DNA from: Chloroflexota bacterium
Lineage (GTDB): Bacteria; Chloroflexota; UBA6077; SHYK01
DNA: 45,600 bases
Direction of reading: 5' to 3'
Assembly: GCA_035652535.1 (NCBI GenBank)
Contig: DASRDP010000027.1
Coordinates: forward strand, 1-45,600
Each line of letters begins with the position of its first letter. Positions within the stretch are counted from its first letter, which is position 1. The notes beneath the pieces are model-generated. The model made no database searches. It was given only the letters and a program-made list of their open reading frames with translations, and was not told the DNA's origin. Of this stretch, positions 12,201 through 36,324 are shown one piece after another. The translations under genes were made by a program, and so were the position numbers.

Positions 12201-12430
12201 AGCCGTCCGACGACTCAAGCCTCGTCGCGACGCTGAGCGGGCCGGCGGAGATGCAGGGATTCGCGCAGGTCTGGGCCCCAGGCACGACCAGCGTCACCCT
12301 CGACGGCATCCCACTTGCTCGCGGGGCATCGAGCGGGCCCAGGCGATACGCATATGATGTACAGACAGGGGTTGTCTCCCTGAGCTTCGACTTCGCCCAG
12401 GCTCATCGCCTTGAGATTCACTGGCAGTAG
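9284..12430 (+). CDS. Secreted NPCBM-domain glycosidase, GH36/GH27-like (clan GH-D type), copy 1
   Basis: 1048 residues, GTG start behind GGGAG. A signal peptide (to about residue 48) precedes an NPCBM carbohydrate-binding domain (about 93-240; GIGTYPLSEITYALGG, QVGLDD), a beta-sandwich like the N-terminal domain of alpha-galactosidases (about 285-550), a TIM barrel (about 555-870) and a C-terminal beta domain. Barrel motifs include WVKYQWDSWWTYG, DLGPWHVLIDAAWYVA, YGADGIELDG (D720 the likely nucleophile, D715 nearby) and FFWADDWPAFNHAYPF (D788/D789, acid/base candidates). It is the first of a tandem pair with the following gene. An alpha-galactosidase-like activity is a family inference; the true substrate is not evident. 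Confidence 0.75.
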   Translation: MAGLPRSVLRPAAVHRNWTSTVAMVIVLLAGLTVGGPLGLNRPAALAGGSPLWQLRSSCARGQPVDLGSPDEDPAADFSGAELESAYQSAVALSGRWIDLTALTWDDATSGWRRLADDEMPRIGKAFPYSPLTMQQVQYPTGIGTYPLSEITYALGGRYGAFRAQVGLDDTSTSSARVRFALYADDVLLFRSPLMSASRAPISVSAPLMGASQLRLVVEDPDADARGDYADWIAPQIFAPVDGAAVLAQAHARLVEVRAARARHVVQATSLRRPPVHRLGPNDRAPEIGNPGQSVVRFDGSTCMITVDNPNVSVAFGYGGPDHGRLFLSSPGADSPSLTGASSSIVLGDQRILVLTETQPDLAHPWDVAAVSDPSLGAGAGVTIHLVAPSGDPIEVLIDVYDDADYLTYQVRPGGALSPQGYSILTDDTSAHLGTRPRYLTDRGKIWSGRIPGDSLKREVPVEPSKPLLLWSDATNRGFVLATIDVTDQPMTVTVEREPDAEDVQLGLAMSFLPSELQAPGPHPSPRLWIEATATDNVYGSFAGYQAVMARMFPPHPLPPWVKYQWDSWWTYGPTPTGDGVERQVDVIARSLADLGPWHVLIDAAWYVAYGRPTADLRNVDYDKFPDGIRPVVDYAHDHGVNVVMYEPAGFVQSGLPEGGEWEAFQAIIDNHPDWLIPLFDDQSLSAYMLDYTVPAVRQYMRDVVTDAIDTYGADGIELDGLADPEGQITDARTRDLHEIRTPYFRVTDIYKLVADRMRELRPDTYLEGGWVNPIFAHPYGDTFFWADDWPAFNHAYPFGGMLQHIDYALFQWVALGQRAKMATVWGDPTAPDTRKWLEAALALGTQVSIGFDLTNLSLDQLSTLRTRLVHADPFNGITVASASAQPNAFATTNGHISFVGLVNRTSQAKSLDDEVGQLNVIAPGLMAYDVDRDRWIAATDLPGFRLDPMSFRLFLIPHQPRIVWSNASWTYEPSDDSSLVATLSGPAEMQGFAQVWAPGTTSVTLDGIPLARGASSGPRRYAYDVQTGVVSLSFDFAQAHRLEIHWQ

Positions 12431-12455
12431 CCTCTTTCACGGCTCGAGGACCTGG

Positions 12456-15400
12456 TTGGCACACCGCTCTTCCCTCCCGCGCCCCCGGAAGCGCTGGTCG
12501 GTCTTCGTCGCCGTTGGCGCGTCGCTCCTCGCCGTGGCCCTGGCGCGGCAGGCGGGCGCCGACGTGGTCCGCGTCGACGACACGGTCCTTCTGGGACGGT
12601 GGATCCCGCTTTCCAGCCAGAACTGGACGACGGCGAGCACGGGATGGGTTGCATTCGGAGATCAGGCCCGACCGCGGCGAGACCAATCGTTCTCCGACAC
12701 ACCGCTCGAGATCGGCGGCAAGCGCTTTGCGAGCGGGATTGGCGCCTTTGCGCCGTCAGAAGTCGTGTACCAGCTCAACCCGAGCGATGTTCTGTTCCGC
12801 GCCGAAATTGGCATCAACCAAGGGTCGCCTCAGGGCGAGGGCGCGTCGGTCTTCCACGTCTTCGTGGATGACGTTCCGGTCTTCACCAGCTCTCCTATTG
12901 CGGCGGGCGCCCCGGCGACTCCCGTGGTCGTGCCCTTGATGGTGGCGGGGCGGCTGCGCCTGGTGGTCGATCCGGAGGGCGAGACCTCGCCGGCGAACCT
13001 TGCCTCGTGGGGCGACGCGGCGATTTTTCAGGCGTCAGCCAGCATCGGAAGTCCGAAACCTTTGACCGCAGCGGCGCAAATCATCCGTCAGGGAGGCGCG
13101 AACGCCGCGCTGAGAGAAGACGCACAGGCTCATCTCGCCACCGACGCGCTGGACCGCGAGCGCGCGATCCAGGACGTCGTGGGAACGATTCCGGCCTCCG
13201 GGTCGGCCGCGGGATTCGATCCCGCCCGAGCGGAATGGATCGTCGCGAACCAGCAGATTGCGGTGTTGCTGACGGTTGGCGACGGCGATTCCGGTCATCT
13301 CTCCGTGGTCCGCCGCGCGCCCGGCCAGGTCGTCCTGGATCGGTCAACGTCCGCGGTTCGCCGTGGACGGCACGAATACCGTCTCGTGGATGGAGTGCCC
13401 GATCTCGACGGCATATCGCCGTCCAAAGTGGACGTATCGGGTTTCGGTTCGGCGACGGAGGTTCGCGTGCCGTTCTCGTTCGAAGATGAGACGGTCACGG
13501 CGATCATCGACGTTCTCGATGATTCGCCGGCGTTTCTCTACCAGCTCCAGCCAAGCCAATCGACTGGCGGCGCAGACTACGAGTTCCTGGACGGCACCGG
13601 GACATTCCTCCTCGGAGACGGGTCCCAGTACTTGACGGACGTGAGTCGGATCCGGTCGGGCGCCATACGCGACGATGGACTGCCGCGCCACGAGTTCGTC
13701 GACTTCGGCAAGCCGCTGCTCCTGTGGGGTGGTGCGCTTGGGTCGGGGGTGCTCCTCGCGACGGTGGACGAGACCGACCTGATGAGCGAGTTCAGCGCCA
13801 CCCTGAGGCCCGGCCAGGTCCAGGCCGACTTTGCGTATACGTCGCGCCGCTCGCGCGATCTGGGGCCTGCACCGCGGCTCTACGTCGAATTGACCAGCGC
13901 GCAGACGCCAAGCACGGCGTTCGATCGCTATCGCGCCGCCATGGGACGGCTCTACCCGTCGCGCCCGCAGCCCGCGTGGCTCCGGTATCAGTGGTCGACC
14001 TGGTACCCGTATGCGATGGCGTACACGGAAGCGGACGTTCGCGAGCAGGTCGACTTCATCGCGCAGAACCTCGCCGACCTTGGGCCATGGCACATCGTTC
14101 TGGACGCGGGGTGGTACGTCGCCGAGGGGAAGCCGGGTTCTGATTTCCGCACGATCGATCAAACCAAGTTCCCCCACGGGATTCGTCCAGTCGTCGACTA
14201 CGCGCACAGGAGAGGCATCAAGGTCGTTCTCTACCTCTCGGCGCCATTCGTCGACTCGCGGGCTCGCCCGGACGATTGGCTCGCGGTAAGGGCGCTGATC
14301 CGCGACCAGCGGAGCTGCCTCGTTCGCCTGGGCGGCGATGCCGAGGGATCCGCCTATATCTTCGATTTCCTGCGGCCGTGTACCCGGCAATACTGGCGGT
14401 CGGTCCTCGACGATTTCTTCGGCACGTACGACGTCGATGGCATCATCATTGACGGGCTCGGAGCAGCCGAGGGGGCCGAGGTGACGCCAGGCTCCCTCGA
14501 CCCATTCGACATCGTCAACGTCCTCGCGGAGCAGACCGTCGACATCTATCGTTTCATGTTCGAGCGCGCAACGAGGTACAAGCCCGACGCATATATCGAG
14601 GGCGATTGGCACTTCCCCATGATGGCCAAGCCGTATGCGAACAGCTTTCGCTTCAGCGACGACTCCGAGGAGTTCAGCCACCCATACCCCTTCGCGGGAA
14701 TGGTCGAGGACGTCGACTACGCGGCATTTCAGCACAGTGCCTTGGGCCAGCCGTCCCACATGGGATGGACGATGGGGGACCCGAATACGAGCCAGGTCAA
14801 CTCCTGGCGACTGGAGGCCGGCCTCGCGATGGGCGCGCTGGCGGCCACCGGGACGAACCTCTTGGATCTGTCCGACGACGGTCTCACGGCGTATCGCGCG
14901 CGGCTGGTGCACCAGCGTCCATTCGCGGGGCAAACGTTCGTCGACGATCCCGCGCACCCCAGCGTGTTCGGCACGACTCGCGACAATCTGGCCTTCGTCG
15001 GCGTATTGAATCGCGACGGCGTGCCGAAAACGATCACCGCGTCCGTTCAGGATTTCGGTCTGTCAACCAGCAAGCGCTACGTCGCGTATTGCCCCGACGA
15101 CGACCAGGCGCGGGTCGTTCAAGGGGCTATCGCAACGGACCTGCCCGGGCAGTCGTTTCGTCTCTGGGTCATTGCCCAGGCCCCCGGCGTTCTGTGGACC
15201 GATAGCTCATTCACAGAACAGCGAACGAGTGGCGACCTCGAGATCACCCTTGGTGGACCGACGCGGTCGCACGGCTTCGCGGTGGTGTACGCGCCGGGGC
15301 TGCGCTCGGTCGCCATGGATGGACGGGAGCTGCATGCCGGCGGCGGCTTCCTGGGTCCCTTCGCGCCTGGCGACTATCAGTACGACGGCGCGACCGGGAT

Positions 15401-15500
15401 CCTTCGTCTCACGTTCGACCACAACGGCCGGCACGTCTTGCGCGTCGGGCTCGGCGCGGCGAGCGTACAATCTGACCAAACCGCTCCATTTGGAGGCTGA
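12456..15500 (+). CDS. Secreted NPCBM-domain glycosidase, GH36/GH27-like, copy 2
   Basis: A tandem paralogue of the preceding gene with the same order: signal peptide, NPCBM (GRWIPLSSQNWTTASTGW, ASGIGAFAPSEVVYQL), beta-sandwich, TIM barrel and beta domain. Barrel motifs match one for one: WLRYQWSTWYPY, DLGPWHIVLDAGWYVAEG, KFPHGIRPVVDYAH, VDGIIIDGLG (D666 in this numbering) and FRFSDDSEEFSHPYPF. The frame is open from TTG 12411, inside the previous gene, but TTG 12456 has a GAGGA site five bases upstream and yields a compact signal peptide (MAHRSSLPRPRKRW...), so it is preferred. About 1015 residues. It lies 25 nt downstream of copy 1 and is probably cotranscribed. Confidence 0.75.
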   Translation: MAHRSSLPRPRKRWSVFVAVGASLLAVALARQAGADVVRVDDTVLLGRWIPLSSQNWTTASTGWVAFGDQARPRRDQSFSDTPLEIGGKRFASGIGAFAPSEVVYQLNPSDVLFRAEIGINQGSPQGEGASVFHVFVDDVPVFTSSPIAAGAPATPVVVPLMVAGRLRLVVDPEGETSPANLASWGDAAIFQASASIGSPKPLTAAAQIIRQGGANAALREDAQAHLATDALDRERAIQDVVGTIPASGSAAGFDPARAEWIVANQQIAVLLTVGDGDSGHLSVVRRAPGQVVLDRSTSAVRRGRHEYRLVDGVPDLDGISPSKVDVSGFGSATEVRVPFSFEDETVTAIIDVLDDSPAFLYQLQPSQSTGGADYEFLDGTGTFLLGDGSQYLTDVSRIRSGAIRDDGLPRHEFVDFGKPLLLWGGALGSGVLLATVDETDLMSEFSATLRPGQVQADFAYTSRRSRDLGPAPRLYVELTSAQTPSTAFDRYRAAMGRLYPSRPQPAWLRYQWSTWYPYAMAYTEADVREQVDFIAQNLADLGPWHIVLDAGWYVAEGKPGSDFRTIDQTKFPHGIRPVVDYAHRRGIKVVLYLSAPFVDSRARPDDWLAVRALIRDQRSCLVRLGGDAEGSAYIFDFLRPCTRQYWRSVLDDFFGTYDVDGIIIDGLGAAEGAEVTPGSLDPFDIVNVLAEQTVDIYRFMFERATRYKPDAYIEGDWHFPMMAKPYANSFRFSDDSEEFSHPYPFAGMVEDVDYAAFQHSALGQPSHMGWTMGDPNTSQVNSWRLEAGLAMGALAATGTNLLDLSDDGLTAYRARLVHQRPFAGQTFVDDPAHPSVFGTTRDNLAFVGVLNRDGVPKTITASVQDFGLSTSKRYVAYCPDDDQARVVQGAIATDLPGQSFRLWVIAQAPGVLWTDSSFTEQRTSGDLEITLGGPTRSHGFAVVYAPGLRSVAMDGRELHAGGGFLGPFAPGDYQYDGATGILRLTFDHNGRHVLRVGLGAASVQSDQTAPFGG

Positions 15501-16080: not shown

Positions 16081-17136
16081 TCACACCCGGACGCCGAGGA
16101 TGCGGGCCGCGTTGTTTTGATAGAGGTCCGCAAGCTGGGCCTCGCTCAGGCTCAGCTCGCCGATGTTCTCGATGGTCCAGCGGATAAAGGCCGTTCCCCG
16201 CTCGGGATCGAACGGCATATCGCTCCCGAACATCATGTGGTCCAGACCCAGGAAGTCCATGGCGCAGCGAATTGCGTGACCGGCGCCGAAGAGGGCCGTA
16301 TCGCCGTAGAACATCTTGAAGTATTCGACGGGTTTCTTGGCCATCGTCTCGCGCTGACGGACCAGCGCGTCGCCCTCGGCGCCGGGCGTGCGGTTGCCCA
16401 AGTTCTCCATCCCGGGGCCGATGCGGCCGGAGAAGTGAGGAACCATGCTGCCCCCGTGGTGGGTGAGGATCTTCAGGTTCGGATAGCGGTCCAGGATGCC
16501 GGAGAAGACGACCCGGGCCATGAAGACCGCGGTCTCATAGGGCCAGCCGAAGGTCCACCAGATTTCGTACTTCGAGTGGTCCTCCGTGGCGTAGTCGGGC
16601 ATCGCCGGTGACCGAGCCGGGTGAACCCAGATCGGCTTGTTCATCTGGGCGACCTTCGCCCAAAACTGATCGAACAGCGGATCGTCGAGCGGGCGGCCCA
16701 GGACGTTGGTGTAGATCTGCACGCCGAGCGCACCCAGCTCATTGATGGCCCGGTCGATCTCTCGGAGCGTACCGTCCACGTCGTTCATGGGGAGCGACGC
16801 GGCGAACCCAAGGAATCGGTCGGGGTACTTTACGCACAGCTCCGCGAGCGTGTCGTTGCCGACGCGCGCCAGTTCGGTCGACGTAGGAGGCGCGCCGATG
16901 GCTTCGATGGGCGGATTCGAGATGGTGAGCACCTGAACGTAATCCCCGAACTGGTCCATGACGCGAAATCGCGCGTCGAGGTCGTAGAGCACGGGGATAC
17001 CGGAATTGCGCTTGAACTGCCCGAGGACCGGCTCCACGGCAACGCGGCTCGCCCGGTCGAGGAGGGGTTTGGGGAAGATGTGCGGGAAGACGTCGATCTT
17101 TTTCAATCCGAACCACCGCCATCTGGATTCGGCCAC
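16081..17136 (-). CDS. Amidohydrolase family 2 protein (ACMSD-like)
   Basis: Up to 351 residues, a metal-dependent TIM barrel. Likely ligands: the N-terminal DVFPHIFP motif (in place of HxH), His in KPIWVHPARS, His in LKILTHHGGSMVPH, and Asp in MMFGSDMPFDPERG at strand 8. The fold family contains aminocarboxymuconate-semialdehyde and other non-oxidative decarboxylases as well as hydrolases. GTG 17136 gives the longest form; TTG 17106 (giving MKKIDVFPHIFP) is a common family start but has only a weak G-rich sequence upstream. The repeat island separates it from the CoA-transferase gene in the same orientation. Among the five amidohydrolases here its sequence is the most distinct. Confidence 0.8.
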   Translation of the reverse strand: MAESRWRWFGLKKIDVFPHIFPKPLLDRASRVAVEPVLGQFKRNSGIPVLYDLDARFRVMDQFGDYVQVLTISNPPIEAIGAPPTSTELARVGNDTLAELCVKYPDRFLGFAASLPMNDVDGTLREIDRAINELGALGVQIYTNVLGRPLDDPLFDQFWAKVAQMNKPIWVHPARSPAMPDYATEDHSKYEIWWTFGWPYETAVFMARVVFSGILDRYPNLKILTHHGGSMVPHFSGRIGPGMENLGNRTPGAEGDALVRQRETMAKKPVEYFKMFYGDTALFGAGHAIRCAMDFLGLDHMMFGSDMPFDPERGTAFIRWTIENIGELSLSEAQLADLYQNNAARILGVRV

Positions 17137-17387: not shown

Positions 17388-17500
17388 AGGCTCAGGGCGA
17401 AGGGGTTCGGAGGCTCAGGGCGAGCGGTTCGGAGGCTCAGGGCGAAGGGGTTCGGAAGGTCAGGGCGAAGGGGTTCGGAGGCTCAGGGCGAGCGGTTTTG
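17388..17500. repeat. Five-copy 22/23-bp tandem repeat
   Basis: Units start at 17388, 17411, 17433, 17456 and 17479. The 23-bp form contains CTCAGGGCGAAGGGGTTCGG; a 22-bp form has GAGCGG in place of GAAGGGG (units 2 and 5). Unit 4 has lost one C. Read on the minus strand the units give the recurrent phrase PFALSLRT, the conceptual translation of a widespread REP-like repeat. It ends 19 bp before the stop of the CoA-transferase gene, so it lies in that gene's 3' untranslated region. Confidence 0.8.
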
Positions 17501-17519: not shown

Positions 17520-18701
17520 CTACACGACGCCCGCCGCGCTCAACTCGCCGATGCGGGCCTCGTCCAGGCCCAGTCCCGAGAGGATCTCGACCGTGTGCTC
17601 GCCGAGGAGCGGCGGGGCGGTGGCATAGCGGATGGGCGTCTCGCCAAGGTTCACCGGCCCTCCGCTGAGCCGCACCTTGCCCATGACCGGGTGGGTCACC
17701 TCGACCGGTAAGCCGAGCTGCTGCACGTGCGCGTCCTCGAATACCTCCGGCATCGTGTACAGCGGCCCACACGGTACGTCGTGCGCGCGAAGGAGGTCGA
17801 CCCAGTGCTGCCGAGGAGCGGTCGCAAAGACCTCCTGGCAGATGGCGCGCAGCGCGTCGTAGTTCCGGATCCGAGCGTCGCGTGTCATGAACCGGGCGTC
17901 CTCACGAAGCTCCGATTTGCCCAGCGCCTCCGTCAAGCCCTCCCAGAACTTGGGCGGCGACGAGAGGTGGAACACGAACGGCTTTCCGTCGCCGGCGACG
18001 AACGCGGCTGCGAGGTTTGGGCGGCCGGTCTCCGCGGTCGGCTCGCCCGTGGAGAGGTACCGCGCCGCGTGGAGCTGGACGAACGAGACGATGGACTGCA
18101 GCAGCGACGTCTCCACCTTCTGGCCCCTCCCCGTCTCTGCCCGGGCGTACAGGGCCCCCAGGACCCCGTAGCAGGCGAAGATTCCCGTGAGGTGGTCCGC
18201 AAAGGTAAAGCGCGACGGCTCTGGCGCGCTCAGGTCGGTGAGCAGGCTGAGGAGCCCGCCCATGGCCACGCCGAGAGTGTCGTAGCCCGGCAGGTCACGG
18301 TATGGGCCATCTTGCCCGAAGCCGGAGATGGAGCAATAGACGAGGCCCGGATTCGCCTGCTGGAGCGTCTCGTAGTCGAGCCCCCACCGTCGCATCTGCC
18401 CTGGCCGATGGTTTTCGATGACGACCGAAGCGGTCGAGGCGAGCTGGCGGAAGATCTGCTGCCCCTCCGTCGTCCCCAGATTCAGGGTCAGGCTTCGCTT
18501 GTTCCGGTTGAGGGCCACAAAGCCCGTGTTGTAGCCTTCCTTCCCCGATTCGCGGTCGAACCCGCGAAAGGGGTCGCCGAATGGTCGCTTTTCGATCTTG
18601 ATGACGTCCGCGCCGAGATCGGCGAGGAGCATCCCGGCGTAGGGGCCCGTGATGTAGTCGGCGACCTCCAGCACCGTGACTCCACTCAACGCACCGGCCA
18701 T
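17520..18701 (-). CDS. CaiB/BaiF CoA-transferase family III protein
   Basis: 393 residues, the full length for this family of interlocked-dimer CoA-transferases. The N-terminal motif LEVADYITGPYAGMLLADLGADVIKIE binds CoA; FVALNRNKRSLTLNL and NHRPGQMRRWGLDY follow. The catalytic aspartate is D169 in FTFADHLTGIFA. RGQKVETSLLQS and GRPNLAAAF complete the large domain. It moves CoA between carboxylic acids by way of a covalent acyl-Asp intermediate. It is the last gene of a run with a GMC flavoprotein, its small subunit and two amidohydrolases, 33 nt from the flavoprotein stop. This suggests activation of an acid produced by that pathway. The acyl donor and acceptor cannot be read from sequence. 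Confidence 0.9.
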   Translation of the reverse strand: MAGALSGVTVLEVADYITGPYAGMLLADLGADVIKIEKRPFGDPFRGFDRESGKEGYNTGFVALNRNKRSLTLNLGTTEGQQIFRQLASTASVVIENHRPGQMRRWGLDYETLQQANPGLVYCSISGFGQDGPYRDLPGYDTLGVAMGGLLSLLTDLSAPEPSRFTFADHLTGIFACYGVLGALYARAETGRGQKVETSLLQSIVSFVQLHAARYLSTGEPTAETGRPNLAAAFVAGDGKPFVFHLSSPPKFWEGLTEALGKSELREDARFMTRDARIRNYDALRAICQEVFATAPRQHWVDLLRAHDVPCGPLYTMPEVFEDAHVQQLGLPVEVTHPVMGKVRLSGGPVNLGETPIRYATAPPLLGEHTVEILSGLGLDEARIGELSAAGVV

Positions 18702-18734
18702 ATCTCCTCCCCGTCTGATATCGGTGGCTCGGGT

Positions 18735-20441
18735 CTAACGGAACAGCTCGCGCTGGCGCGCGATGTACTCCGCGGTCCGGTAGGCGAGCGCGGCGATCGT
18801 GCAGGTCGGCGGGTAGCCCGCCATGGTCGGGAAGTCCGACGATCCGACCACGAAAAGGTTGGGCACGTCGTGGGCCTGGCAGTAGCTATTGACGACGGAG
18901 CGCGCCGGGTCGTCGCCCATTCGTGTGCCGCCCGCCCACCGGTTGGGGGAGGCCTTCACGTCGGTCCACACGTGGCTGGCGCCGGTCTCCTCCATGATGC
19001 GTCGGCCGACGTCGGCCAAGAAGCGGCGCAGGCGCGCTTCGTTCTCGTGGAAGGCGAAGGTCACGCGGGGAAGGGGGACGCCCCACGCGTCTTTGCGCCG
19101 CGGGTCCAGGTCAATCCGGTTCTCCGGGTGCGGAAGCGTTTCCGCCTGCATGTTCAGCTCGAAGGTACGCGTATAGGCCCGGGCGAAGAATTCCTTGAAG
19201 TCGCGCCCCCAGCGCGGTACGTCGGGCGGGAGGACGTCGAAACGTTCCACGGGGGTACCCCCTCCGCTCGTGCCAATCGTCGCGCCGCGGATGAATCCCA
19301 GCCCGGTGTGGTCAAAATTGTTCCCGTTGAAGTCGTCGATGCGAACCGCCGCGGAGCCGGGACCGATGAACCCATTGATGATCGCGTCGTCGAAGACGCC
19401 CGCCGCCCGGACGTCGCCGTGGGCTAGGATGCAGCGACCGACCATCCCGCTCGAGTTCGCCAGACCGCGCCGCGCCGAGGCGCCCTCGGGCCCCGAGAGG
19501 AGCAGCAGACGCACGTTCTCGTACACGAAGGCGGCGAGAATGACCACGCGGGCGCGCTGCTCGCGAATTTGGCCCTCCGGGTCGAAATACGCGACGCCCG
19601 TGGCGCGGCCCGAGAAATCCGTCGTGATGCGAAACGCTCTCGATCGCGTCCGCAGATCGAAGCGGCCGGTTTCGACGGCGGCGGGGATGGCGGTATAGAG
19701 GGTGGCCGCCTTGGCGTGCACGTGACAGCCGTAATAGTTGCAGTGGCCGCAATAGACGCAGGCCGGCCGCTCCGGAATCCGCGTGTCGTACGGCTCCGGC
19801 GGGCGATACGGCTGAGAGAGGATGCCGGCCGGGCTGTCGAAGGGGTGGTACCCGAGCCGCTGGCAGGCGGCGGCGAACAGCTCCCCGCGGGCGCTGCGCC
19901 GCAGCGGTGGAAGGGGATAATCGCGGCGCTTGCCCTCGAAGGGATTCACGCCCGCCTTTCCCGAGACGCCGAACTCCCATTCGAACCGCTCGTAGTAGGG
20001 TTCGAGGTCCTCATAGGAGACCGGCCAATCGGTGATGTCATAACCGGTGAGATCGGCACCCGCCCGGTCGGCGAGTCCGCTCGCCACCTCATTCGTGAAG
20101 ACTCGGAAGTCGCCGGGAAGGAAGCGCGAGGCCTGTCCCGTCCAGTGGAGGAGGGCGCCGCCGAGCGCGTTGGCGGGGCTCGTGGTGTAGCGGAGGGACG
20201 CTCGCGCGTCGCGCCCGCGTCGGTGCATCACGGGGTCGTGGCGCACCCACTCGAGCTGGTTCTGGCGAACGGTGAATTTGATCGAATCCCGCGCCGCGTA
20301 GTCGGACCGTTGGAGCGCTGGACCCCGCTCGAACCCTACGACGTCAAGGCCGGCTCGGGCTAGCTCTTTCGCCAGGATCCCGCCGACGGCGCCAACCCCG
20401 ACGATGCAGACGTCCGCGACGCGATCGCCGGGCACTGTCAT
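18735..20441 (-). CDS. GMC-family FAD oxidoreductase (gluconate 2-dehydrogenase large-subunit type)
   Basis: 568 residues. The Rossmann motif VCIVGVGAVGGILAKELARAG and FERGP bind FAD. ALGGALLHWTGQASRF is the second flavin-contact region. The Cys cluster ACVYCGHCNYYGCHVHAKA is typical of the gluconate-2-dehydrogenase type. The C-terminal flavin region is NLFVVGSSDFPTMAGYPPTCTIAALAYRTAEY. Where relatives have a catalytic His before GGTRMG and an Asn in NPT, this protein has NRWAGGTRMG and YPPT, so the usual proton-handling pair appears changed. It overlaps the small-subunit gene by 4 nt. It probably oxidises an alcohol or sugar acid and passes electrons through a membrane partner that is not encoded here. 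The substrate is unknown. Confidence 0.85.
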   Translation of the reverse strand: MTVPGDRVADVCIVGVGAVGGILAKELARAGLDVVGFERGPALQRSDYAARDSIKFTVRQNQLEWVRHDPVMHRRGRDARASLRYTTSPANALGGALLHWTGQASRFLPGDFRVFTNEVASGLADRAGADLTGYDITDWPVSYEDLEPYYERFEWEFGVSGKAGVNPFEGKRRDYPLPPLRRSARGELFAAACQRLGYHPFDSPAGILSQPYRPPEPYDTRIPERPACVYCGHCNYYGCHVHAKAATLYTAIPAAVETGRFDLRTRSRAFRITTDFSGRATGVAYFDPEGQIREQRARVVILAAFVYENVRLLLLSGPEGASARRGLANSSGMVGRCILAHGDVRAAGVFDDAIINGFIGPGSAAVRIDDFNGNNFDHTGLGFIRGATIGTSGGGTPVERFDVLPPDVPRWGRDFKEFFARAYTRTFELNMQAETLPHPENRIDLDPRRKDAWGVPLPRVTFAFHENEARLRRFLADVGRRIMEETGASHVWTDVKASPNRWAGGTRMGDDPARSVVNSYCQAHDVPNLFVVGSSDFPTMAGYPPTCTIAALAYRTAEYIARQRELFR

Positions 20442-20983
20442 GGCGCGCTCGTGTCGTCAGCGGCGATGGGCGGCAGGTCGACGACGCGGTTGATGTAGGC
20501 ATCTGCATAGCCGGTGCGCTGGCCCGGGAAGCCGACGATTCGCCACCCGACGAGATCGCGGTTTCCACCGTACTGCGGGTCGCCAAATATGCCCTCGAGC
20601 ACGTGCTGGCGCACGAGGCGAAAGAAATCCGCCCCGTTCTTCACGGCCGAGAGCGCACCGGCCTCCAGGTCGGTCAGGATTCGGTCCTGCCCCGCGCCGT
20701 CGAGCTCGCGGAACGCCCGCCCGGACGTTTGGCGAGCGTGGAGGTCGATCTCGCGAAGGGCGCGCCGATACCGGGCGCGCAAGGAGGCGTAGGCGCCGGC
20801 GAGGGCGATTTCGATGTACTCGACGGCGCCGGCGTCGACCGCGCCGGGGGTATCGGTGGCGGGGAAGATTCGCTCCGCGATGGCGGCAAGGGTCACGCGC
20901 TCACCCCGCGTGAGCGCGCGACCCTCCCTCCGCTCGTGGGGATTCTGGGTCGATGTCGACCGCCGCGACGTCCTGGCCGTCAC
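20438..20983 (-). CDS. Gluconate 2-dehydrogenase subunit 3-like protein
   Basis: 181 residues. The helical Gluconate_2-dh3 domain starts at LTRGERVTLAAIAERIFPATDTPGA and ends with the family hallmark EGIFGDPQYGGNRDLVGWRIVGFPG. It is the small partner of GMC flavoproteins, needed for assembly or export of the complex. Many homologues have a Tat signal; none is visible here, the N-terminus being just Arg/Ser-rich. GTG start, whose bases overlap the upstream amidohydrolase stop (GTGA), and its own stop overlaps the GMC start. The three genes are therefore tightly coupled. A later start nearer LTRGE is possible. Confidence 0.85.
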   Translation of the reverse strand: MTARTSRRSTSTQNPHERREGRALTRGERVTLAAIAERIFPATDTPGAVDAGAVEYIEIALAGAYASLRARYRRALREIDLHARQTSGRAFRELDGAGQDRILTDLEAGALSAVKNGADFFRLVRQHVLEGIFGDPQYGGNRDLVGWRIVGFPGQRTGYADAYINRVVDLPPIAADDTSAP

Positions 20984-22074
20984 TGGGACGGTCCGAGATG
21001 AAAGAGGCGTGCGGGATTATGGGAAACGATCTTTTCGACCGTTGGCTCGTCGAGGTCGCCGCGTCGCAGCAGCCCTTCAGCCAGGCGGTCCTGCCGAAAC
21101 GCGTCGCCATGCGGGTAATCCGTGGCGGTGATGATCCACTCATCGCCGAGTCGGGAGGTGAGGTACGGCAGGTCCTCGTCGAGGCGGCACGAGACGAACA
21201 CGCGCTCGCCGAGCCGGTCCTTCGCCCGCTTGTTTCGTGCCGAGGCGGCCTGCATGATGCGCGGCACCCACTCGCAGCCGGCCTCCATGAAGCCGACGCG
21301 AAGGGCGGGAAACGCGTCGAGGAGGTCCGAAGACAGAATCTGCTGGAATGCGTAGAGCACGTACGGGCCGCTGACGAGTCCCGCCCCGAGCGGATGGATG
21401 TGGGGGAAGTCGTCGAGATACGGTCGCGGCACTCCGTCCAACATGCGGCTGATCGTCGGGCTCGATCCGTTCCCAACGTGGACGCAAATGGGCAGATCTG
21501 CCGCGGCCGCCGCCTCGAAGATGGGACGCAGCATTGGGTGGGTGAGGGGCATGTCCCACTCGACCCCGCGCGCGAAAATGCCGGCCGCGGACGGCATCTC
21601 TTTGACCCGCGCGATCTCCTTGATGGCGAGATCTGGCCGCCGCCATGGCACGACCGCGACGTACCAGAGCCGGTCCCCGGACTGGGCGCACTGGGTAGCC
21701 ATGTACGTGTTGTAGCTGCGCGCCAGGGCGGCCTCGAGATCGACGTTTTCCGCAAGCGTCCCAAGCCAGATAGATGGGAAGATCACCTGGCGATCGATGC
21801 CCAATTCATCGATTGCCGCCGTGCGGGACGGTACATCCGCCAGCTCCTGAATCGCGATGGACGCGCCCTTCGCATCGGCCCGCTTCATCGTCGTCGGATT
21901 CGACGCGAAGAATCTCAGCTTGTAGTCGATCACCCACGCCGCGTTGTGGGTGCCGAAGCACGTGTCCTCGGGAAAGGTGACCGGGATCGGTCGAAAGGCG
22001 TGAAACTCGGGCTCGAGATATGACCAGGTTGCGACGCTCTCTTCGACGTGGGCGTCGCAATCGACGACGGCCAT
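20980..22074 (-). CDS. Amidohydrolase family 2 protein (second of tandem pair)
   Basis: 364 residues from ATG 22074, chosen because GAGGAG (22082-22087) lies 7 nt upstream and the protein then opens directly with MAVVDCDAHVEES. Ligand motifs: DCDAHVEE at the N-terminus, His in PICVHVGNGSSP, Glu in RVGFMEAGCEWVPR, Asp in WIITATDYPHGDA. It is clearly paralogous to the next gene upstream (shared YSYLEPEF-type opening, LARSYNTYMATQCAQSGDRL, FPHIHPLGAG). Its RBS overlaps that gene's stop, and its own stop overlaps the start of the gluconate-2-dehydrogenase small subunit. It probably cleaves or decarboxylates the substrate of the same pathway. Confidence 0.85.
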   Translation of the reverse strand: MAVVDCDAHVEESVATWSYLEPEFHAFRPIPVTFPEDTCFGTHNAAWVIDYKLRFFASNPTTMKRADAKGASIAIQELADVPSRTAAIDELGIDRQVIFPSIWLGTLAENVDLEAALARSYNTYMATQCAQSGDRLWYVAVVPWRRPDLAIKEIARVKEMPSAAGIFARGVEWDMPLTHPMLRPIFEAAAAADLPICVHVGNGSSPTISRMLDGVPRPYLDDFPHIHPLGAGLVSGPYVLYAFQQILSSDLLDAFPALRVGFMEAGCEWVPRIMQAASARNKRAKDRLGERVFVSCRLDEDLPYLTSRLGDEWIITATDYPHGDAFRQDRLAEGLLRRGDLDEPTVEKIVSHNPARLFHLGPSQ

Positions 22075-22085
22075 ACTGTGACTCC

Positions 22086-23174
22086 TCAGGCCAGGTTGTA
22101 GAGGCGCGTGGCATTCGTCGCCAATAGCTTGTCGAGCGTCGGCTCCGAGAGATCCCACCTTTCGCGAAAGGCGTCGGCAGGGTGCTCGTGGGCGAAGTCG
22201 TCCTCGTGGGGCATGTCACTCGCGATGACCAGGCACTCATCGCCGAGGTTCTGCATGAGCCAGGGCAGATCCTCGTACGGCTCGCACGAGACGAAGATGG
22301 CCCCCTCGCGGAAATACCGCTCGCCATCGCGATTGCTCCGATGGCGCAACGCGCGGATCGTGGGCACAACCCACTCGGCGCCAGCCTCGAGAATGGCCCA
22401 TCGGAGGCGCGGGAAGTCCTCGATCACGGTGCTGCTCAGAAGCCCTTGCACCGCCTGCTGAACGAGGAGGCCGCTCAGCAGCCCGCGAGCGAGCGGATGG
22501 ATGTGGGGGAAGGGATCCGGTTTCGGCCGCGGCATGCCCTCGAACATCCGGTTGATCGTCGGGCTCCCAAATCCGATGTGAAGCCCCATGACGAGCCCCT
22601 GCTGTTCGGCTTCCTCGTAAATGGGCCAGAACATCGGATGCGTGATGGGAATGTCCCACTCCATGCCGCGAATGAAGATGCTGACGGCGCTGCCCAACTC
22701 CTTGACGCGCCGAATCTCCGCGACGGCGGCCGCGGGCTTGCGGAAGGGAAGCACGGCGGCATAGGCCAGCCGACCTCCCGACTGAGCGCACTGCGTCGCC
22801 ATGTACGTGTTGTAGCTGCGGCAGAGCGCAGCTTCCAGTTCGACGTCCTCGGCCAGGCAGCCGAGCCACGTAGAGGGGTAGAGCACCTGCTTCTCGATGC
22901 CGCACCGGTCGAGGTCCCGCAAGCGCATGGGCACGTCGGAGATCTCCTGGGAGGGCACGGCAAAGGCGCGGCGCTGTGCGCGGGCTATGCTGGTCGGGCT
23001 CGAGGCGAACTTGCGCAGCTTGTAGTCGATGAGCCATCCGCCGTTGTGCTCGCCCCACGCCGTGTCCGTCGGAAAGGAGATCGGCACGGGGCGTCGCGCG
23101 TAGAACTCGGGCTCGAGGTAGGACCAATGGCCGATGCCCTCTTCAACGTGGGCGTCGGCGTCGACGACGCGCAT
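22086..23174 (-). CDS. Amidohydrolase family 2 protein (first of tandem pair)
   Basis: 362 residues from ATG 23174 (GGAG six bases upstream). Upstream in-frame starts exist to 23231 but add unrelated residues. Ligand motifs: VVDADAHVEEG, His in VMGLHIGFGSP, Glu in WAILEAGAEWVVP, Asp in LVIASDMPHEDD. It shares LCRSYNTYMATQCAQSGGRL and FPHIHPLARGL with its neighbour, and their lengths (362 and 364) agree. It is the first gene of the putative amidohydrolase/GMC/CoA-transferase operon, preceded by a possible promoter at 23260-23289. Confidence 0.85.
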   Translation of the reverse strand: MRVVDADAHVEEGIGHWSYLEPEFYARRPVPISFPTDTAWGEHNGGWLIDYKLRKFASSPTSIARAQRRAFAVPSQEISDVPMRLRDLDRCGIEKQVLYPSTWLGCLAEDVELEAALCRSYNTYMATQCAQSGGRLAYAAVLPFRKPAAAVAEIRRVKELGSAVSIFIRGMEWDIPITHPMFWPIYEEAEQQGLVMGLHIGFGSPTINRMFEGMPRPKPDPFPHIHPLARGLLSGLLVQQAVQGLLSSTVIEDFPRLRWAILEAGAEWVVPTIRALRHRSNRDGERYFREGAIFVSCEPYEDLPWLMQNLGDECLVIASDMPHEDDFAHEHPADAFRERWDLSEPTLDKLLATNATRLYNLA

Positions 23175-23358: not shown

Positions 23359-23390
23359 GGGCTCTTGATCGCGGATGGCGCGCCGATCCT

Positions 23391-23423
23391 CCGTGCGCCC
23401 CGCGGAACCGCCGGGGCGCACGG
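23391..23423 (-). terminator. Second perfect hairpin after the 73-aa gene
   Basis: CCGTGCGCCCC and GGGGCGCACGG form a perfect 11-bp stem with an 11-nt loop, 12 nt downstream of the stop at 23436. It has no T-run of its own; it may help termination or protect the mRNA 3' end. A third perfect 10-bp inverted repeat, AAACGATCGA/TCGATCGTTT (23424-23452), overlaps the end of the coding region. Confidence 0.5.
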
Positions 23424-23435
23424 AAACGATCGACG

Positions 23436-23657
23436 CTACGCCTCGATCGTTTCGAGGAACGCGTCCAGGTCTTTCCGAAGCTGCGGGCTGTCCTCGTGTC
23501 CATGCGAGCTGATCGCGTGCGCGACCGCCGCGTCGACGAGGTCACTTCGTTGGCTTTCTGGCGCCATGATCACCAGCTTGCAGCCCCTTTCGCTGGGGAA
23601 CTTCCCGCAATTCGCGACGACCCACTTGCCCGTTACACCTAGCTCGTTGAGGTTCAT
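23436..23657 (-). CDS. Small 73-residue protein, possibly DUF1059-like
   Basis: Translated from ATG 23657 behind a very strong GGAGGAGG site (23664-23671). It has a GKWVVANCGKFPSERGCKLV core with two Cys, then VDAAVAHAISSHGHEDSPQLR and an acidic helical end (LDAFLETIEA). The Cys pair and the AHA..HGHEDS segment recall DUF1059 small proteins, but the resemblance is limited. No signal peptide. It sits 128 nt downstream of the binding-lipoprotein gene and upstream of a cluster of hairpins, so it is probably the end of that transcript. Function unknown. Confidence 0.7.
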   Translation of the reverse strand: MNLNELGVTGKWVVANCGKFPSERGCKLVIMAPESQRSDLVDAAVAHAISSHGHEDSPQLRKDLDAFLETIEA

Positions 23658-23785: not shown

Positions 23786-25522
23786 TCACGGACTGGCCAG
23801 GTCCCAGTCTTGTACGTTCCACGCCTGGGTGAAGTCCTCGCCCCGCGCAGTGACGTTGAGCAGCCGATTCGACACGAGCGTGGGATCCGCGCCATAGAAG
23901 AGGGGAAGCTGGCTGAGGTTTTCCGTCTGGTGGTGGACGATATCGCCGAGCGCGCGCATACGCTCTGCCAGGGGAATCGCCGTCACGTAGCGCTCGATCG
24001 CCGCGTCGAGGTCCGGGTTGCGGTAGCGGCTCTCGAACCCCGATGCCCGGTAGCCGTTCTCTGGCAACGGGGCTTGGGAGCTGTGGAACCGATAGACGTC
24101 CGCAGCATCGAGCCTGTTCACCCGCTCGACTATCTGGAAGCCGGGAAAGGTCGCTCGGTAGGGCCGGTCCAGCGTGCGCTGAATCGGAATCGGCACCTGG
24201 TCCACTGCCACACCCATGGCCTGCCACGCGTCGGCGATCGGGGCGGTCGCCTTCAGGTGGATATCGTTCTGAGTCGGGATGCGAATGGAAACGGTCAGCT
24301 TGGCGCCGTCGGCTCCGTACAGGAAGCCGTCGCCACGCTTCGTGTAACCCAGCTCCGAGACAATCTGCGCCGACTGACGCGGGTCGTACGGGTACTTCAC
24401 GATTCGCGGCTCGATGAGGTTGTACATGGGCGTGTCGGGTGAAACGTAGCTGTCTGCGACGGCGCCGTGGCCTGAGAACACGAAATCGGTGAGCTGCTGT
24501 CGATCGATGGCGAGGAACAGCGCCTTTCGGAACCGGTAGTCGAGGATGATGACTGGATCCGGATCGATGAATTGGGGATTGAGCGGTGTCCAGTTCTGCT
24601 TGCGGATCTCGACCCTGCCACCCTTCCACTGGTCCTGCGCTTGCAGTGCCATGTCCAGGGACATGGTCTTCCCAAGGGTCATGTCGGTTCCTGCCAGGAT
24701 GTTGGCCAAAAGCGCGTTGTTGTCCGGGATGAAATCGATCTCGATCTCGTCGATCTTTGGTCGGCCGAAGACGTACCCGTTGTACGCGTCGACGGTTGCG
24801 TGGACATCCTGGACCCACTCGCGCATGGTGAACGCGCCCGCGCCGACGTACCCATCGGTCCAGAACGGGAGCGTGAGGAAATTAGTCTTGTCGTTCGTGT
24901 ATGAGTCCGCGAGGATGTGCTTGGGAAGCGGCATGCCCGCTGCCCCATAGCTGAACATCGTGTCAGCGTCGATATAGGGCTGCTTCCAGATGACGGTGAT
25001 GGTGTGAGGGTCGGCGGCCTCGATCGAGTCGATCAACCCATATTCTGCGTACGACGCAATCTCAAGGTCCTTGTCCTGTTCGACGGTGGTGGTGAACAGG
25101 AAATCATCCGCCGTGACGGGCGTGCCGTCCTGCCAGGTCGCGGAGGCTTTGATCTTCCACGTAGTCTCCATCGTACCGTCGGGCTGCACTTTCCAGAGGC
25201 CGTTGTCGAGGGACGGCACCTCCTCAGCGAGCTGCGGCGCACGACCCCCGTCGGCCTTGACATAGGTCAGCCCGGCGTTTGTGAGCTCTTCGATCGCGTC
25301 GAGGCCGCGGAGCGCACCTCCGCGCTGCGTCTTCAGGAGGACCAGGGAGCCAGGGTCTGCGCGAATCGCGGCGGTGATGCGTTTCGGCCCAAATTGGGCC
25401 GACATGGACGCCTGGCCGCTGGGATCTCCGGACTTGGGCGCGATTCCCGGGCCGCACGCGCAGATCATCAGCGCGCAACCCACCCAAACCGTTCGAGCTC
25501 GCACGATTGCCGTTGGTCGCAT
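23786..25522 (-). CDS. Peptide/solute ABC transporter substrate-binding lipoprotein (SBP_bac_5)
   Basis: 578 residues from ATG 25522 (GGAG seven bases upstream). The signal VWVGCALMICAC ends in a lipobox-like ICAC. Cluster-C binding-protein motifs: GGALRGLDAIEELTNAGL, TWKIKASATWQDGTPVTADDF, VGAGAFTMREW, FRKALFLAIDRQQL, DPRQSAQIVSELGY, NPDLDAAIERYV and a C-terminal WNVQDWDL. It is closely related to the 36484-38205 protein (shared GRPKIDEIEIDFI-type segment). No permease or ATPase genes lie nearby. Ligands of this family extend well beyond peptides, to opines, sugars and heme, so the ligand is open. Confidence 0.85.
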   Translation of the reverse strand: MRPTAIVRARTVWVGCALMICACGPGIAPKSGDPSGQASMSAQFGPKRITAAIRADPGSLVLLKTQRGGALRGLDAIEELTNAGLTYVKADGGRAPQLAEEVPSLDNGLWKVQPDGTMETTWKIKASATWQDGTPVTADDFLFTTTVEQDKDLEIASYAEYGLIDSIEAADPHTITVIWKQPYIDADTMFSYGAAGMPLPKHILADSYTNDKTNFLTLPFWTDGYVGAGAFTMREWVQDVHATVDAYNGYVFGRPKIDEIEIDFIPDNNALLANILAGTDMTLGKTMSLDMALQAQDQWKGGRVEIRKQNWTPLNPQFIDPDPVIILDYRFRKALFLAIDRQQLTDFVFSGHGAVADSYVSPDTPMYNLIEPRIVKYPYDPRQSAQIVSELGYTKRGDGFLYGADGAKLTVSIRIPTQNDIHLKATAPIADAWQAMGVAVDQVPIPIQRTLDRPYRATFPGFQIVERVNRLDAADVYRFHSSQAPLPENGYRASGFESRYRNPDLDAAIERYVTAIPLAERMRALGDIVHHQTENLSQLPLFYGADPTLVSNRLLNVTARGEDFTQAWNVQDWDLASP

Positions 25523-25703
25523 CTCTACGCTCCGACACCGGAACAACCCGCGCCATGGAACCGGCCAACCGTCGGCTCCCCCGATGCGGCATCTGCCGTT
25601 GGCCGATCGTAGGTCGGGCGCAGAGAGAGGGCAAATAACTCTCTTCACATCGGTCCATAAGAATTGACTTATACCGAAGGAGAGCGCGTGGACCGGACGG
25701 TCG

Positions 25704-31752: not shown

Positions 31753-33486
31753 TCACCCTTTGGCGAACGACCAGGTCTGGATGTCCCAGTAGGGAGTCGT
31801 GGCGCGGCTCGTGTCCCCGAACTGCGGCGCCTCGACGCCTGTCGGCCCGTGCAGGGAGCTGACCCACACTTCGATCCCCTGAGAGAAGTAAAGCGAGTAA
31901 CCGGGCAGATCTTCGCTCACAAGCGCAATCATCTGCGCGACGTCTTTCCCACGCGCGGCCGGGTCAAGCTCGGACTGCCACGCGGCATACAGACGGTCGT
32001 AATCCGGGCTGGTCCAACCGGACCGGTTTCGCCCGCGCCAGCGATTCGCGGCCGTGCCCACCTCGGAGGACAGGAAGCTGGGTTCGCCGCCAAAGAAGCC
32101 GTAGGACAGTCCGGGCAAGGTGTGGCGCGTCTCGAGCTGCGTGAAGACCTGCGGGGCGATTACGTCCTGGCGAACGTTGAACCCCGCCTTGTGCCACGAG
32201 TCGCTGAGGACCGTCTGCATGCGCTGGATCTCGGACGCGGCTTGGACGGCGAAGTCCACGTTCACCGGTCGTCCAGACGCTGCGACGAAGTTGCCGCTGC
32301 TGTCTTTGGCATACCCGGCCTCCGCCATGAGCTGAGCCGAGCGATTTGGATCGAGCGGATATTTCGTCATCAGGCGGTCGGCTTCGGCGAAGTAGGGAAG
32401 GCTTGGCGGAATCGGCGAGTCGGTGGGCGCGCCGAGTCCGTCGAAGGCGCCGTCGTTGATCGCCCCACGGTCGATGGCGTGGGCGAGCGCCCTGCGCACG
32501 CGCAGGTCGAGGAGCGCTTCGTCGCCGACGTACTCCGGCCGCTGCTGGAGATAGAGGAACACGGCGGTCCCGGGAATCGCGGCCGCGGTCCCCTTCCCCG
32601 CCGTCTCCCACTCTTGCTTGAGGGTGACGTACTGCACGAACCGCAGCGTGTTGCAGCAGGCGTAGTCGATCTGGTCGCCCGCGAAGACCGTCGCGAGGGT
32701 CTGGTTCTCATCGAGAAAGATTCGAACGACGAGCCGGTCGATCTGGGGACCGCCCAGGGCATGCCCCGCGAAGCCAGTGCCTTCGAGCTGAACGCCCGGC
32801 TCCCAGCGCTCGAGTCGATACGGACCTGCTCCCACGTAACCGGCGGTCCAGTATGGGTCGGCCATGAAGGCGTCTGAGCCGATACGTCCGGTCGTGAAGT
32901 CCGCGTACAGCGGACCCAGCAGATGTTGGGGCAGCGGATCCAAGTCTTCAAACCCGAGCGTTCCCCCAAGCGGGTTCGGCGCTCCCCACTCCACCACGAG
33001 GGTGCGCGCGTCGCGCGCCACGGCGTTCTCCATCGAATCCTGCGGGGTCGAGATGAAGACGGCGAGCCCCGGGTCGGTGTAGACGTGAAATGCGAACACG
33101 AAGTCGTCGGCGGTTAGGGGCGCGCCGTCCTGCCAGGTGAGGTTGCCGCGCAGGGTATAGGTCGTCTCCATTCGCCCGTCGGGCATGACGCGCCAGGATT
33201 CTGTGTTGAGCTGCGGAAGCGACTCCGCTAGATACGGGCGAACTGCCCCTTTGTCGTCCACCAGGCTCAGCGCGGCGTTGAAGAGCCGTGTGGTGTTGCG
33301 GGTGCCGTTACTCTGGAGGACTTTTGACGCCAGATTGGATGGCTCGTAGCGGTGGGCGAGGACCAGCGTGCGGCTCTGGTTTGGCTCGGGTGTCCCCGGC
33401 GCCTCTCTCGGTCGCTGGCCCTCGCCGGGCGCGCAGCCGATCAGCAGTGTCATCGACACGATTCCCGCCACGACGATCCATCGCAT
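31753..33486 (-). CDS. Peptide/solute ABC transporter substrate-binding lipoprotein (SBP_bac_5), second type
   Basis: 577 residues with a textbook lipoprotein signal (MRWIVVAGIVSMTLLIGC). Family motifs: LSLVDDKGAVRPYLAESLPQL, TLRGNLTWQDGAPLTADDFVF, GYVGAGPYRLERWEPG, LRVRRALAHAIDRGAI, DPNRSAQLMAEAGYAKDSSG and a C-terminal YWDIQTWSF. It is more distant from the other two binding proteins than they are from each other. GGAGG precedes the ATG. Divergent from the amidohydrolase at 33629, with 142 bp between. No permease or ATPase is encoded nearby. Ligand unknown. Confidence 0.85.
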   Translation of the reverse strand: MRWIVVAGIVSMTLLIGCAPGEGQRPREAPGTPEPNQSRTLVLAHRYEPSNLASKVLQSNGTRNTTRLFNAALSLVDDKGAVRPYLAESLPQLNTESWRVMPDGRMETTYTLRGNLTWQDGAPLTADDFVFAFHVYTDPGLAVFISTPQDSMENAVARDARTLVVEWGAPNPLGGTLGFEDLDPLPQHLLGPLYADFTTGRIGSDAFMADPYWTAGYVGAGPYRLERWEPGVQLEGTGFAGHALGGPQIDRLVVRIFLDENQTLATVFAGDQIDYACCNTLRFVQYVTLKQEWETAGKGTAAAIPGTAVFLYLQQRPEYVGDEALLDLRVRRALAHAIDRGAINDGAFDGLGAPTDSPIPPSLPYFAEADRLMTKYPLDPNRSAQLMAEAGYAKDSSGNFVAASGRPVNVDFAVQAASEIQRMQTVLSDSWHKAGFNVRQDVIAPQVFTQLETRHTLPGLSYGFFGGEPSFLSSEVGTAANRWRGRNRSGWTSPDYDRLYAAWQSELDPAARGKDVAQMIALVSEDLPGYSLYFSQGIEVWVSSLHGPTGVEAPQFGDTSRATTPYWDIQTWSFAKG

Positions 33487-33628: not shown

Positions 33629-34684
33629 ATGACCGTGATCGACGCGGACTGCCACGTAATCGAGAACGACCACACCTGGGACTACTTCGATGAGGAGGAG
33701 GCGAGCCTACGGCCGCTGAGCCTCGTCTCGACGCGTCCGGAGTCCCAAGGCAAGCGCTTCATGTCTATCGACGGCCGGCTCCGCACGGTCGGCTTCGCTG
33801 AGCCCCGCGGGAGCGCGGGAGAGGAGATCTCCGGCTACACGAAAACGTCCGCGGTGTCGCGAACGCTGGCGGACGTCGAGGCCCGCCTGCGCCACATGGA
33901 TGAGCTGGGGGTCGACGTGCAGGTCCTCTATCCCACCCTGTATCTCACGGAGCTCACCTCACGCCCAAAGGTCGAGGCGGCGATGTGCCGCAGCTACAAC
34001 CGCTGGCTCGGCGACATCTGGGAGCAGTCCGACAATCGGCTTCGTTGGGTTGCCGTGCTGCCGCTGCTCGACATGAAAGAGGCGCTCAGCCAGCTTCGGT
34101 GGTCCATGGATCATGGCGCCTGCGGCATTTTCATGCGGGGATTCGAGGGCCGTCGCACGTTGAGCGATCCGTACTTCTACCCCCTATACGAAGAGGCCCA
34201 GCGCCTCAACGCGCCCGTGTGCGTCCACGCCGGCTGCGCCAACACCCCCTATCGTGAGCTGGCCCGCGAGACCTTCTCCATCGCGAAGCTGCCGGTCATC
34301 AGCTCGTTCCATGCCCTCATCACGAACGGCATTCCGGACCGGTTCCCGGCGTTGCGGTTCGGATTCATCGAGGCCGCCGCCACGTGGCTCCCCTACGTCA
34401 TCACGGACCTACGCCGGCGACTCGTTCGCGAGGGCAAGCCGCCGCTTTCGGACAATCCGCTCGCCGACAATCGCATGTACGTCGCGTGCCAGACGAACGA
34501 CGATCTCCCATTCGTCATCAAGTACGCGGGGTCGGATAACCTCGTGATCGGGTCAGACTACGGCCATGCCGACACGTCGACGGAGCTGCTTGCCCTGCGC
34601 AACCTCCACGAGACGACGTCCATCTCGCCTGACGTTCTGAAGAAGATTCTCGAGGATAATCCGCGGGCGCTGTACGGGATCTGA
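33629..34684 (+). CDS. Amidohydrolase family 2 protein
   Basis: 351 residues. Metal-site motifs: VIDADCHVIEND at the N-terminus, His in APVCVHAGCANTP, Glu in LRFGFIEAAATWLPY, Asp in LVIGSDYGHADTS at strand 8. Also SRPKVEAAMCRSYNRWLGDIW, like the MCRSYN/LARSYN segment of the tandem pair. A G-rich RBS (GGGGGAAGAG) precedes the ATG. Divergent from a binding-lipoprotein gene and convergent with the broken DUF302 gene. It could be a hydrolase or a non-oxidative decarboxylase; the reaction is unresolved. Confidence 0.85.
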   Translation: MTVIDADCHVIENDHTWDYFDEEEASLRPLSLVSTRPESQGKRFMSIDGRLRTVGFAEPRGSAGEEISGYTKTSAVSRTLADVEARLRHMDELGVDVQVLYPTLYLTELTSRPKVEAAMCRSYNRWLGDIWEQSDNRLRWVAVLPLLDMKEALSQLRWSMDHGACGIFMRGFEGRRTLSDPYFYPLYEEAQRLNAPVCVHAGCANTPYRELARETFSIAKLPVISSFHALITNGIPDRFPALRFGFIEAAATWLPYVITDLRRRLVREGKPPLSDNPLADNRMYVACQTNDDLPFVIKYAGSDNLVIGSDYGHADTSTELLALRNLHETTSISPDVLKKILEDNPRALYGI

Positions 34685-35250: not shown

Positions 35251-36324
35251 TCAGTCGGCCAGACACCGATAGAAATGGCCGGCATTGTCGCCCAGAATGC
35301 GCTCGGCTGCCGATTCCTCGAGGCCAGGGATCGCGCGAAGGGCGCTGACCGTGTTCGGCCACTTGGTGTCCCCATGGGGGTAGTCCGATGCGTACAGGAT
35401 GCAGCCGTCGCCGATCCGCGCGACGACGTCGGGCAGGCCCCGCTCGTCAGGCTCGCACGAGAAGAACAGGCGGCCCTGCCGGATGTATTCGCTGGCCGGC
35501 GTGTCCTGCTTGCTGCGCGTCGCGATCTGGTCGTCGAGGCGCTCCGTCCAGTACGGCACCCACCCGCACCCGCCCGCCTCGAAGAAGCCGAAGCGAACGT
35601 GGGGGTATCGCTCCAGCATGTGGCCCTGGAATAGGCTGGTCATCGCGACCATGTAGGAGATGGGAACCGCTACGGTCCGTGACCCGAACCATGTGTCGAA
35701 CAGATCCTGCCAGGGCTGCTCGTAGACGCCGGTCACGCCGTGGATGGCGATGGCGGCCTGGAGGCGGTCGGCCTCTTCGAAGAACGGTTCGAAGTCGCGG
35801 TGATCGAGGAGGCGCGATCCCACGAGTGGCGGTGTCACGGCTCCCACACAGCCCAGCTCGACCACGGCGCGGCGAAGCTCATGCGCCGCCTGGAGCGGAT
35901 CCTGGAGCGCCACGACCGCGACGCGCTTCAGTCGGTCCGGGGCGGCTGCGCATCGCTCGGCGAGGTGATCGTTCCAGGCCCGCGAGATCGCGCTGGCGAC
36001 ATCCGGGTTTTCGATGCCGGGATTGACGAGGATCAAGTCTGGATAGAGCACCTGGATCTGTACGCCTTCCCGGTCCATGTCCGAGAGCCGGCCAGGCACG
36101 TTGTCGACGTAGTAGTCCTGCGCGCCGATCCGGCGCGTTCCAAATCCGCCGGGCGTGCCCTGGCCGAACCCGCCGAGCTTCGGTGCGAGTTTGCCATCGA
36201 TCACCCAGAATTCGCGACCGTCGAGATGAATTGGGCGGGGCTTGCGGTCGGTGGGGATGCCGTCGAGTCGCTCGGCGAAAATCTCATACGGCACGGTTAC
36301 ATGGGCGTCCGCGTCGACGATCAT
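35251..36324 (-). CDS. Amidohydrolase family 2 protein
   Basis: 357 residues beginning MIVDADAHVTVPYEIF. Motifs: DADAH (N-terminal metal site), His in AAIAIHGVTGVYE, Glu in VRFGFFEAGGCGWVPYW, Asp in CILYASDYPHGDTKWP. Also VQIQVLYPDLILVNPG and AISRAWNDHLAERCAAAPDRL. Family known for metal-dependent decarboxylases and hydrolases. Divergent from the binding-lipoprotein gene at 36484, across 159 bp. This repeats the amidohydrolase/binding-protein pairing seen at 31753-34684. Confidence 0.85.
   Translation of the reverse strand: MIVDADAHVTVPYEIFAERLDGIPTDRKPRPIHLDGREFWVIDGKLAPKLGGFGQGTPGGFGTRRIGAQDYYVDNVPGRLSDMDREGVQIQVLYPDLILVNPGIENPDVASAISRAWNDHLAERCAAAPDRLKRVAVVALQDPLQAAHELRRAVVELGCVGAVTPPLVGSRLLDHRDFEPFFEEADRLQAAIAIHGVTGVYEQPWQDLFDTWFGSRTVAVPISYMVAMTSLFQGHMLERYPHVRFGFFEAGGCGWVPYWTERLDDQIATRSKQDTPASEYIRQGRLFFSCEPDERGLPDVVARIGDGCILYASDYPHGDTKWPNTVSALRAIPGLEESAAERILGDNAGHFYRCLAD

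Follow-up and report, generated by a model that had tools for sequence, protein, structure and literature searches.

Most of the PF04909 (amidohydrolase-related) enzymes characterised so far are non-redox (PMC10401708), and the same fold also serves the oxygenases AibH1H2, SfbO, PtmU3 and LynB7, which share six metal ligands and an extra acidic residue. In AibH2 the ligands are D25, H27, H211, E265, D337 and H340, with D342 in the second sphere (PMC7782822, PMC10401708); the ligand set of LynB7 is the same (PMC10127204), and a six-residue criterion for the dinuclear site has been set out (PMC10401708). PtmU3 acts on CoA esters (PMC7782822) and is a diiron hydroxylase in the literature; treating it as a thioesterase, a reading that we considered, is wrong. 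AibH1 possesses the six ligands yet is mononuclear with a single zinc, and it lacks the second-sphere Asp (PMC7782822); the ligands alone are thus no proof of oxygenase function. A small Rieske protein adjoins 90% of the published AibH2-like genes, for which the published cut-off is >24-25% identity to AibH2. The catabolic Aib cluster of Rhodococcus wratislaviensis combines an adjacent pair of amidohydrolase-fold genes with dehydrogenases and the electron donors aibG/aibF (PMC7782822), and the cluster genes considered here include no CoA-transferase. Among flavoproteins, membrane-bound fructose dehydrogenase, FAD glucose dehydrogenase and gluconate 2-dehydrogenase consist of a GMC large subunit beside a Gluconate_2-dh3 small subunit that carries a Tat signal, together with a cytochrome c subunit.

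The window (the whole 45,600-nt stretch of Chloroflexota DNA analysed here) contains five genes, A to E, in which an adjacent pair of amidohydrolase-fold paralogues is likewise found with a dehydrogenase, though of other types than in the Aib cluster, and is followed by a CoA-transferase gene. We propose, with a probability of about one half, that A-E form one transcription unit for the oxidative catabolism of an organic acid, in which A/B would activate O2, C-D would act as a dehydrogenase and E would transfer CoA. The interest of the operon lies in the probable misnaming of A and B as amidohydrolases and in the non-standard clade to which D belongs.

Organisation and probable limits of the A-E operon

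The features are listed in Table 1. All five ORFs are intact and close-packed on one strand, in the order and orientation of the initial annotation, with a strong coding signal (GC3 0.81-0.87 vs GC2 0.46-0.54). The Pfam assignments agree with the families named in that annotation, and none of the five proteins reached a curated NCBIfam cut-off. The start at 23174 was taken for A because it has a Shine-Dalgarno sequence and agrees with the start of A relatives.

Table 1. Genes A-E and the flanking elements (window coordinates)
Feature	Position	Strand	Family or type	Residues or remarks
Gene A	22086..23174	-	PF04909, 362 aa	D7 H9 H199 E263 D320 H323 D325
Gene B	20980..22074	-	PF04909, 364 aa, A paralogue	D7 H9 H199 E264 D319 H322 D324
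Gene C	20438..20983	-	PF13618 (Gluconate_2-dh3 small subunit), 181 aa	GTG start
Gene D	18735..20441	-	PF00732/PF05199 GMC flavoprotein large subunit, 568 aa	Arg501, Pro544
Gene E	17520..18701	-	PF02515 family III CoA-transferase, 393 aa	nucleophile Asp169
Hairpin (strong)	23385..23440	-		z -4.1, no T run
Tandem repeat array	17388..17491		23-bp unit, 4.6 copies	directly downstream of E

Genes A and B are separated by 11 nt with a Shine-Dalgarno sequence within the stop (TGAGGAG), and the B/C and C/D borders are 4-nt overlaps (GTGA and ATGA, respectively). Coupling had been claimed for every border; it holds for these three of the four, as D and E are separated by a 33-nt gap without overlap and E has its own Shine-Dalgarno sequence (GGGGAGGAG). 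The hairpin, which separates A from a small upstream gene, is the probable upstream limit of the unit, and the repeat array is its likely downstream limit. The first description, of coupled genes that probably serve catabolism and include both a flavin dehydrogenase pair and a CoA-transferase, is supported. The initial annotation knew of no named pathway with these members, and our literature search for the gene combination likewise found nothing.

The small upstream gene (23436-23657) encodes a 73-aa DUF1059-like protein (sub-threshold Pfam match) with a Shine-Dalgarno sequence and lies between an SBP gene and A. On the other side, gene F (16081-17136) is a PF04909 gene of the decarboxylase type, with His at the decarboxylase catalytic position and Phe in place of the first metal His (IDVFPH); its relatives (49-51% identity) occur in six of the Chloroflexota genomes. 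Gene F was rejected as a member of the unit, since it lies 384 nt from E past the repeat array, carries decarboxylase-type residues and has its relatives located elsewhere.

Metal-site signature of A and B

A and B are paralogues (54% identical), as aibH1 and aibH2 are. A recent tandem duplication was rejected, because in the tree A falls outside the B clade as a whole (support 96/99). The seven signature residues of Table 1 do not vary among A, B and 11 relatives, and the position of AibH2 Asp342 and PtmU3 Glu313 is acidic in both proteins (A D325, B D324). In a PDB profile search, dinuclear oxygenases, either known or candidate, made up five of the top seven matches (8sm8, PtmU3, 8sm9, AibH2 and 8sm7), the other two being the uncharacterised 4dzi and DitZ. 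The four later ligands were confirmed in profile alignments to PtmU3, AibH2 and two diiron-site structures; the first-strand D-x-H was read directly from the sequences and is profile-aligned with 4dzi only. The B model (pTM 0.81, mean pLDDT 75) has the PF04909 TIM-barrel fold, and in Foldseek its ranks 1-11 were chains of TruffO, AibH1H2 and SfbO, with decarboxylases starting at rank 13.

Judged by these ligands and by the modelled fold, A and B look like, and may work like, amidohydrolase-related dinuclear oxygenases rather than hydrolases. The "hydrolysis or decarboxylation" at first ascribed to them fits poorly with the dinuclear-oxygenase ligand set and with the Glu that both carry after the sixth strand, where the mononuclear PF04909 decarboxylases (ACMSD, gamma-resorcylate, 5-carboxyvanillate) have their catalytic His. 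In the proposed scheme A and B, perhaps assembled with one another, would hold a dinuclear site (Fe2 or Mn/Fe), most likely activating O2 for oxidation of a substrate C-H bond. Nothing supports a pair of the AibH1-AibH2 type, in which one subunit is mononuclear: unlike AibH1, which is without the second-sphere Asp, both A and B keep it and with it the dinuclear site. We do not file A and B as AibH2-like members, because the Rieske partner is missing and the identity to AibH2 is too low (about 20% for both; 19-22% between B and the AibH1H2 chains in Foldseek alignments, under the published cut-off). Unlike the AibH2-type oxygenases, A/B have no adjacent small Rieske ferredoxin or reductase gene, and a scan of the rest of the window and of 1.31 Mb of the host genome found no small Rieske ferredoxin.

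It is quite possible, though on balance doubtful, that A and B have the ordinary metal-dependent chemistry of PF04909, as hydrolases, hydratases or decarboxylases with an incidental second metal, and degrade a lactone, amide or aromatic acid together with C/D and E. The missing Rieske partner, the non-redox chemistry of most family members and the single zinc held by six ligands in AibH1 are what such enzymes would lead one to expect, whereas the Glu at the decarboxylase His position, a first ligand that is Asp and not His, the second-sphere Asp in both proteins and the oxygenases as nearest folds argue against it.

Proteins of this kind are abundant in the host. In its 4.4-Mb genome (G000), about 42 of the 53 PF04909 proteins examined (L003-L008, L136-L174 and window A, B and F), a sample chosen by similarity to B, plus F, and so biased to B, have the six ligands, a motif biochemically tested in only a handful of proteins; 27 of these roughly 42 also have an acidic seventh residue (Asp or Glu). 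The genomes examined hold many genes annotated as amidohydrolases, which are commonly taken for hydrolases. If even some of the roughly 42 proteins are oxygenases, these bacteria have a large unrecognised oxidative capacity, for which the A-E operon is a compact target for testing. At L168:215-2578 and L160:160-2166 there are adjacent paralogue pairs in which the later ligands are complete in one member but partly lost from the other (DHHENL.), a possible parallel to the AibH2/AibH1 arrangement. A partnership between these paralogues and full-length Rieske oxygenases was rejected (6 of 32 within 1.5 kb, vs 5.2 expected).

The C-D flavoprotein pair and gene E

In structure, D most resembles the fructose dehydrogenase (FDH) large subunit and the alpha subunit of glucose dehydrogenase, and its model shows a full GMC fold with the FAD motif and cysteine cluster intact. 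The FDH positions altered in solved variants are N1146, H1147 and N1190 (from entry titles); in an alignment via related proteins they correspond to N500, R501 and P544 of D, of which we infer the latter two. The catalytic His position is Arg in window D and in its relatives in genomes G401 and G402, and the catalytic Asn position is Pro, Pro and Ala, respectively, whereas both residues are kept in 16 of 16 other homologues. It is this His, supported by the Asn, that abstracts the proton in a related GMC enzyme (PMC10646112). With both canonical residues replaced, the plain "alcohol or sugar-acid oxidation" first proposed for D is not supported.

The loss of both residues throughout the clade would also suit a degenerate, non-catalytic D retained as a structural partner of C, which is improbable given 62-79% identity across two phyla, the intact FAD motif and cysteine cluster and the full fold in the model. 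Such strong conservation of C-D speaks against decay, so that the chemistry must differ or another base is used; the lack of the His/Asn pair in this GMC clade poses a testable enzymological question of its own. As one flavoprotein dehydrogenase, C and D would take hydride from the substrate or an intermediate through a non-standard active site and pass the electrons to the respiratory chain.

C-D differs from the fructose, glucose and gluconate dehydrogenase complexes in its accessory parts: C has neither a Tat signal nor a hydrophobic N-terminus, the Tat signal is absent from C throughout the D clade, and there is no cytochrome c gene within the A-E operon. In the nearest relative, G001 (L052:6712-10206), C-D is preceded by genes for a fused cytochrome b-c and an MtrC-like multihaem cytochrome, which suggests a respiratory acceptor. 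We consider it very improbable that C-D, a GMC flavoprotein that has lost the alcohol-oxidising His/Asn pair, instead serves an A-B dinuclear oxygenase as its own source of electrons and so stands in for the Rieske ferredoxin and reductase used by AibH1H2; if true, this would be a new kind of multicomponent monooxygenase.

E is a full-length family III CoA-transferase that shares PF02515 and the nucleophilic Asp with formyl-CoA, succinate-glutarate and succinate-hydroxymethylglutarate CoA-transferases, and it scores far under the cut-off of every curated NCBIfam family. Its best relatives in G400 and G401 are only 51-52% identical and unlinked. E would place CoA onto a carboxylate, either before or after the oxidation.

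Neighbourhood conservation and surroundings

Of 400 genomes of the same phylum, none besides the host contained B at E <= 1e-90. A pattern scan of an 84,980-species collection placed full-length B-family relatives (52-69% identity) in nine other genomes, and neither C nor D occurred within the fetched flanks of these nine. D at >=60% identity was present, among the genomes searched, only in G001, G401 and G402, with C and D adjacent in each; G001 belongs to the host's family, and its D copy runs for 289 residues before the contig ends. C-D is thus a stable adjacent pair whose neighbours differ each time, e.g. in G401 a LOG-type gene and an uncharacterised protein, and in G402 a ThDP enzyme and, at a greater distance, a Rieske oxygenase. 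C and D are fused in G015 and Lichenicola. Single proteins made of fused C and D homologues are encoded at L056:492-2741 and L079:4353-6620.

The initial annotation had named a lack of neighbourhood conservation outside close relatives as grounds for refuting its one-substrate reading, and such a lack is what we observed: no other genome searched has A or B beside C or D. The A-E linkage was found in none of them, so conservation does not show a single pathway. The operon is ordinary in form and, as far as searched, private to the host lineage. In the rpoB tree a genome of the host's phylum sits beside the named Chloroflexota (support 87/88), which makes Chloroflexota the likely phylum. This lack of conservation, the different C-D neighbours in each of four genomes and the at least 52 PF04909 copies in the host would be expected if A-B, C-D and E were independently moving modules assembled by chance and co-transcribed outside any common pathway. 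We regard this as rather unlikely, in view of the tight stop-start coupling from A to D and of the B family and D clade occurring together, at equal divergence, in three genomes that span at least two phyla, which is consistent with the single pathway proposed above. Among the 9 B-family genomes 2 contain the D clade, compared with a single one of the roughly 987 scanned (p = 2e-4), an association that is only suggestive because few genomes are involved. B and D are each 68% identical to their G401 counterparts, and 63% and 62%, respectively, to those of G402; since rpoB identity to G401 is 60%, the higher B and D values for that genome suggest horizontal transfer.

Elsewhere in the window, three genes for SBP_bac_5 solute-binding proteins at 23786-25648, 31753-33486 and 36484-38205 each lie near an oxygenase-signature PF04909 gene (A, 33629-34684 and 35251-36324). 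Large NPCBM-domain proteins are encoded at 1-3862 and 12411-15500, one with GSDH and Big_5 domains and one GH31-like.
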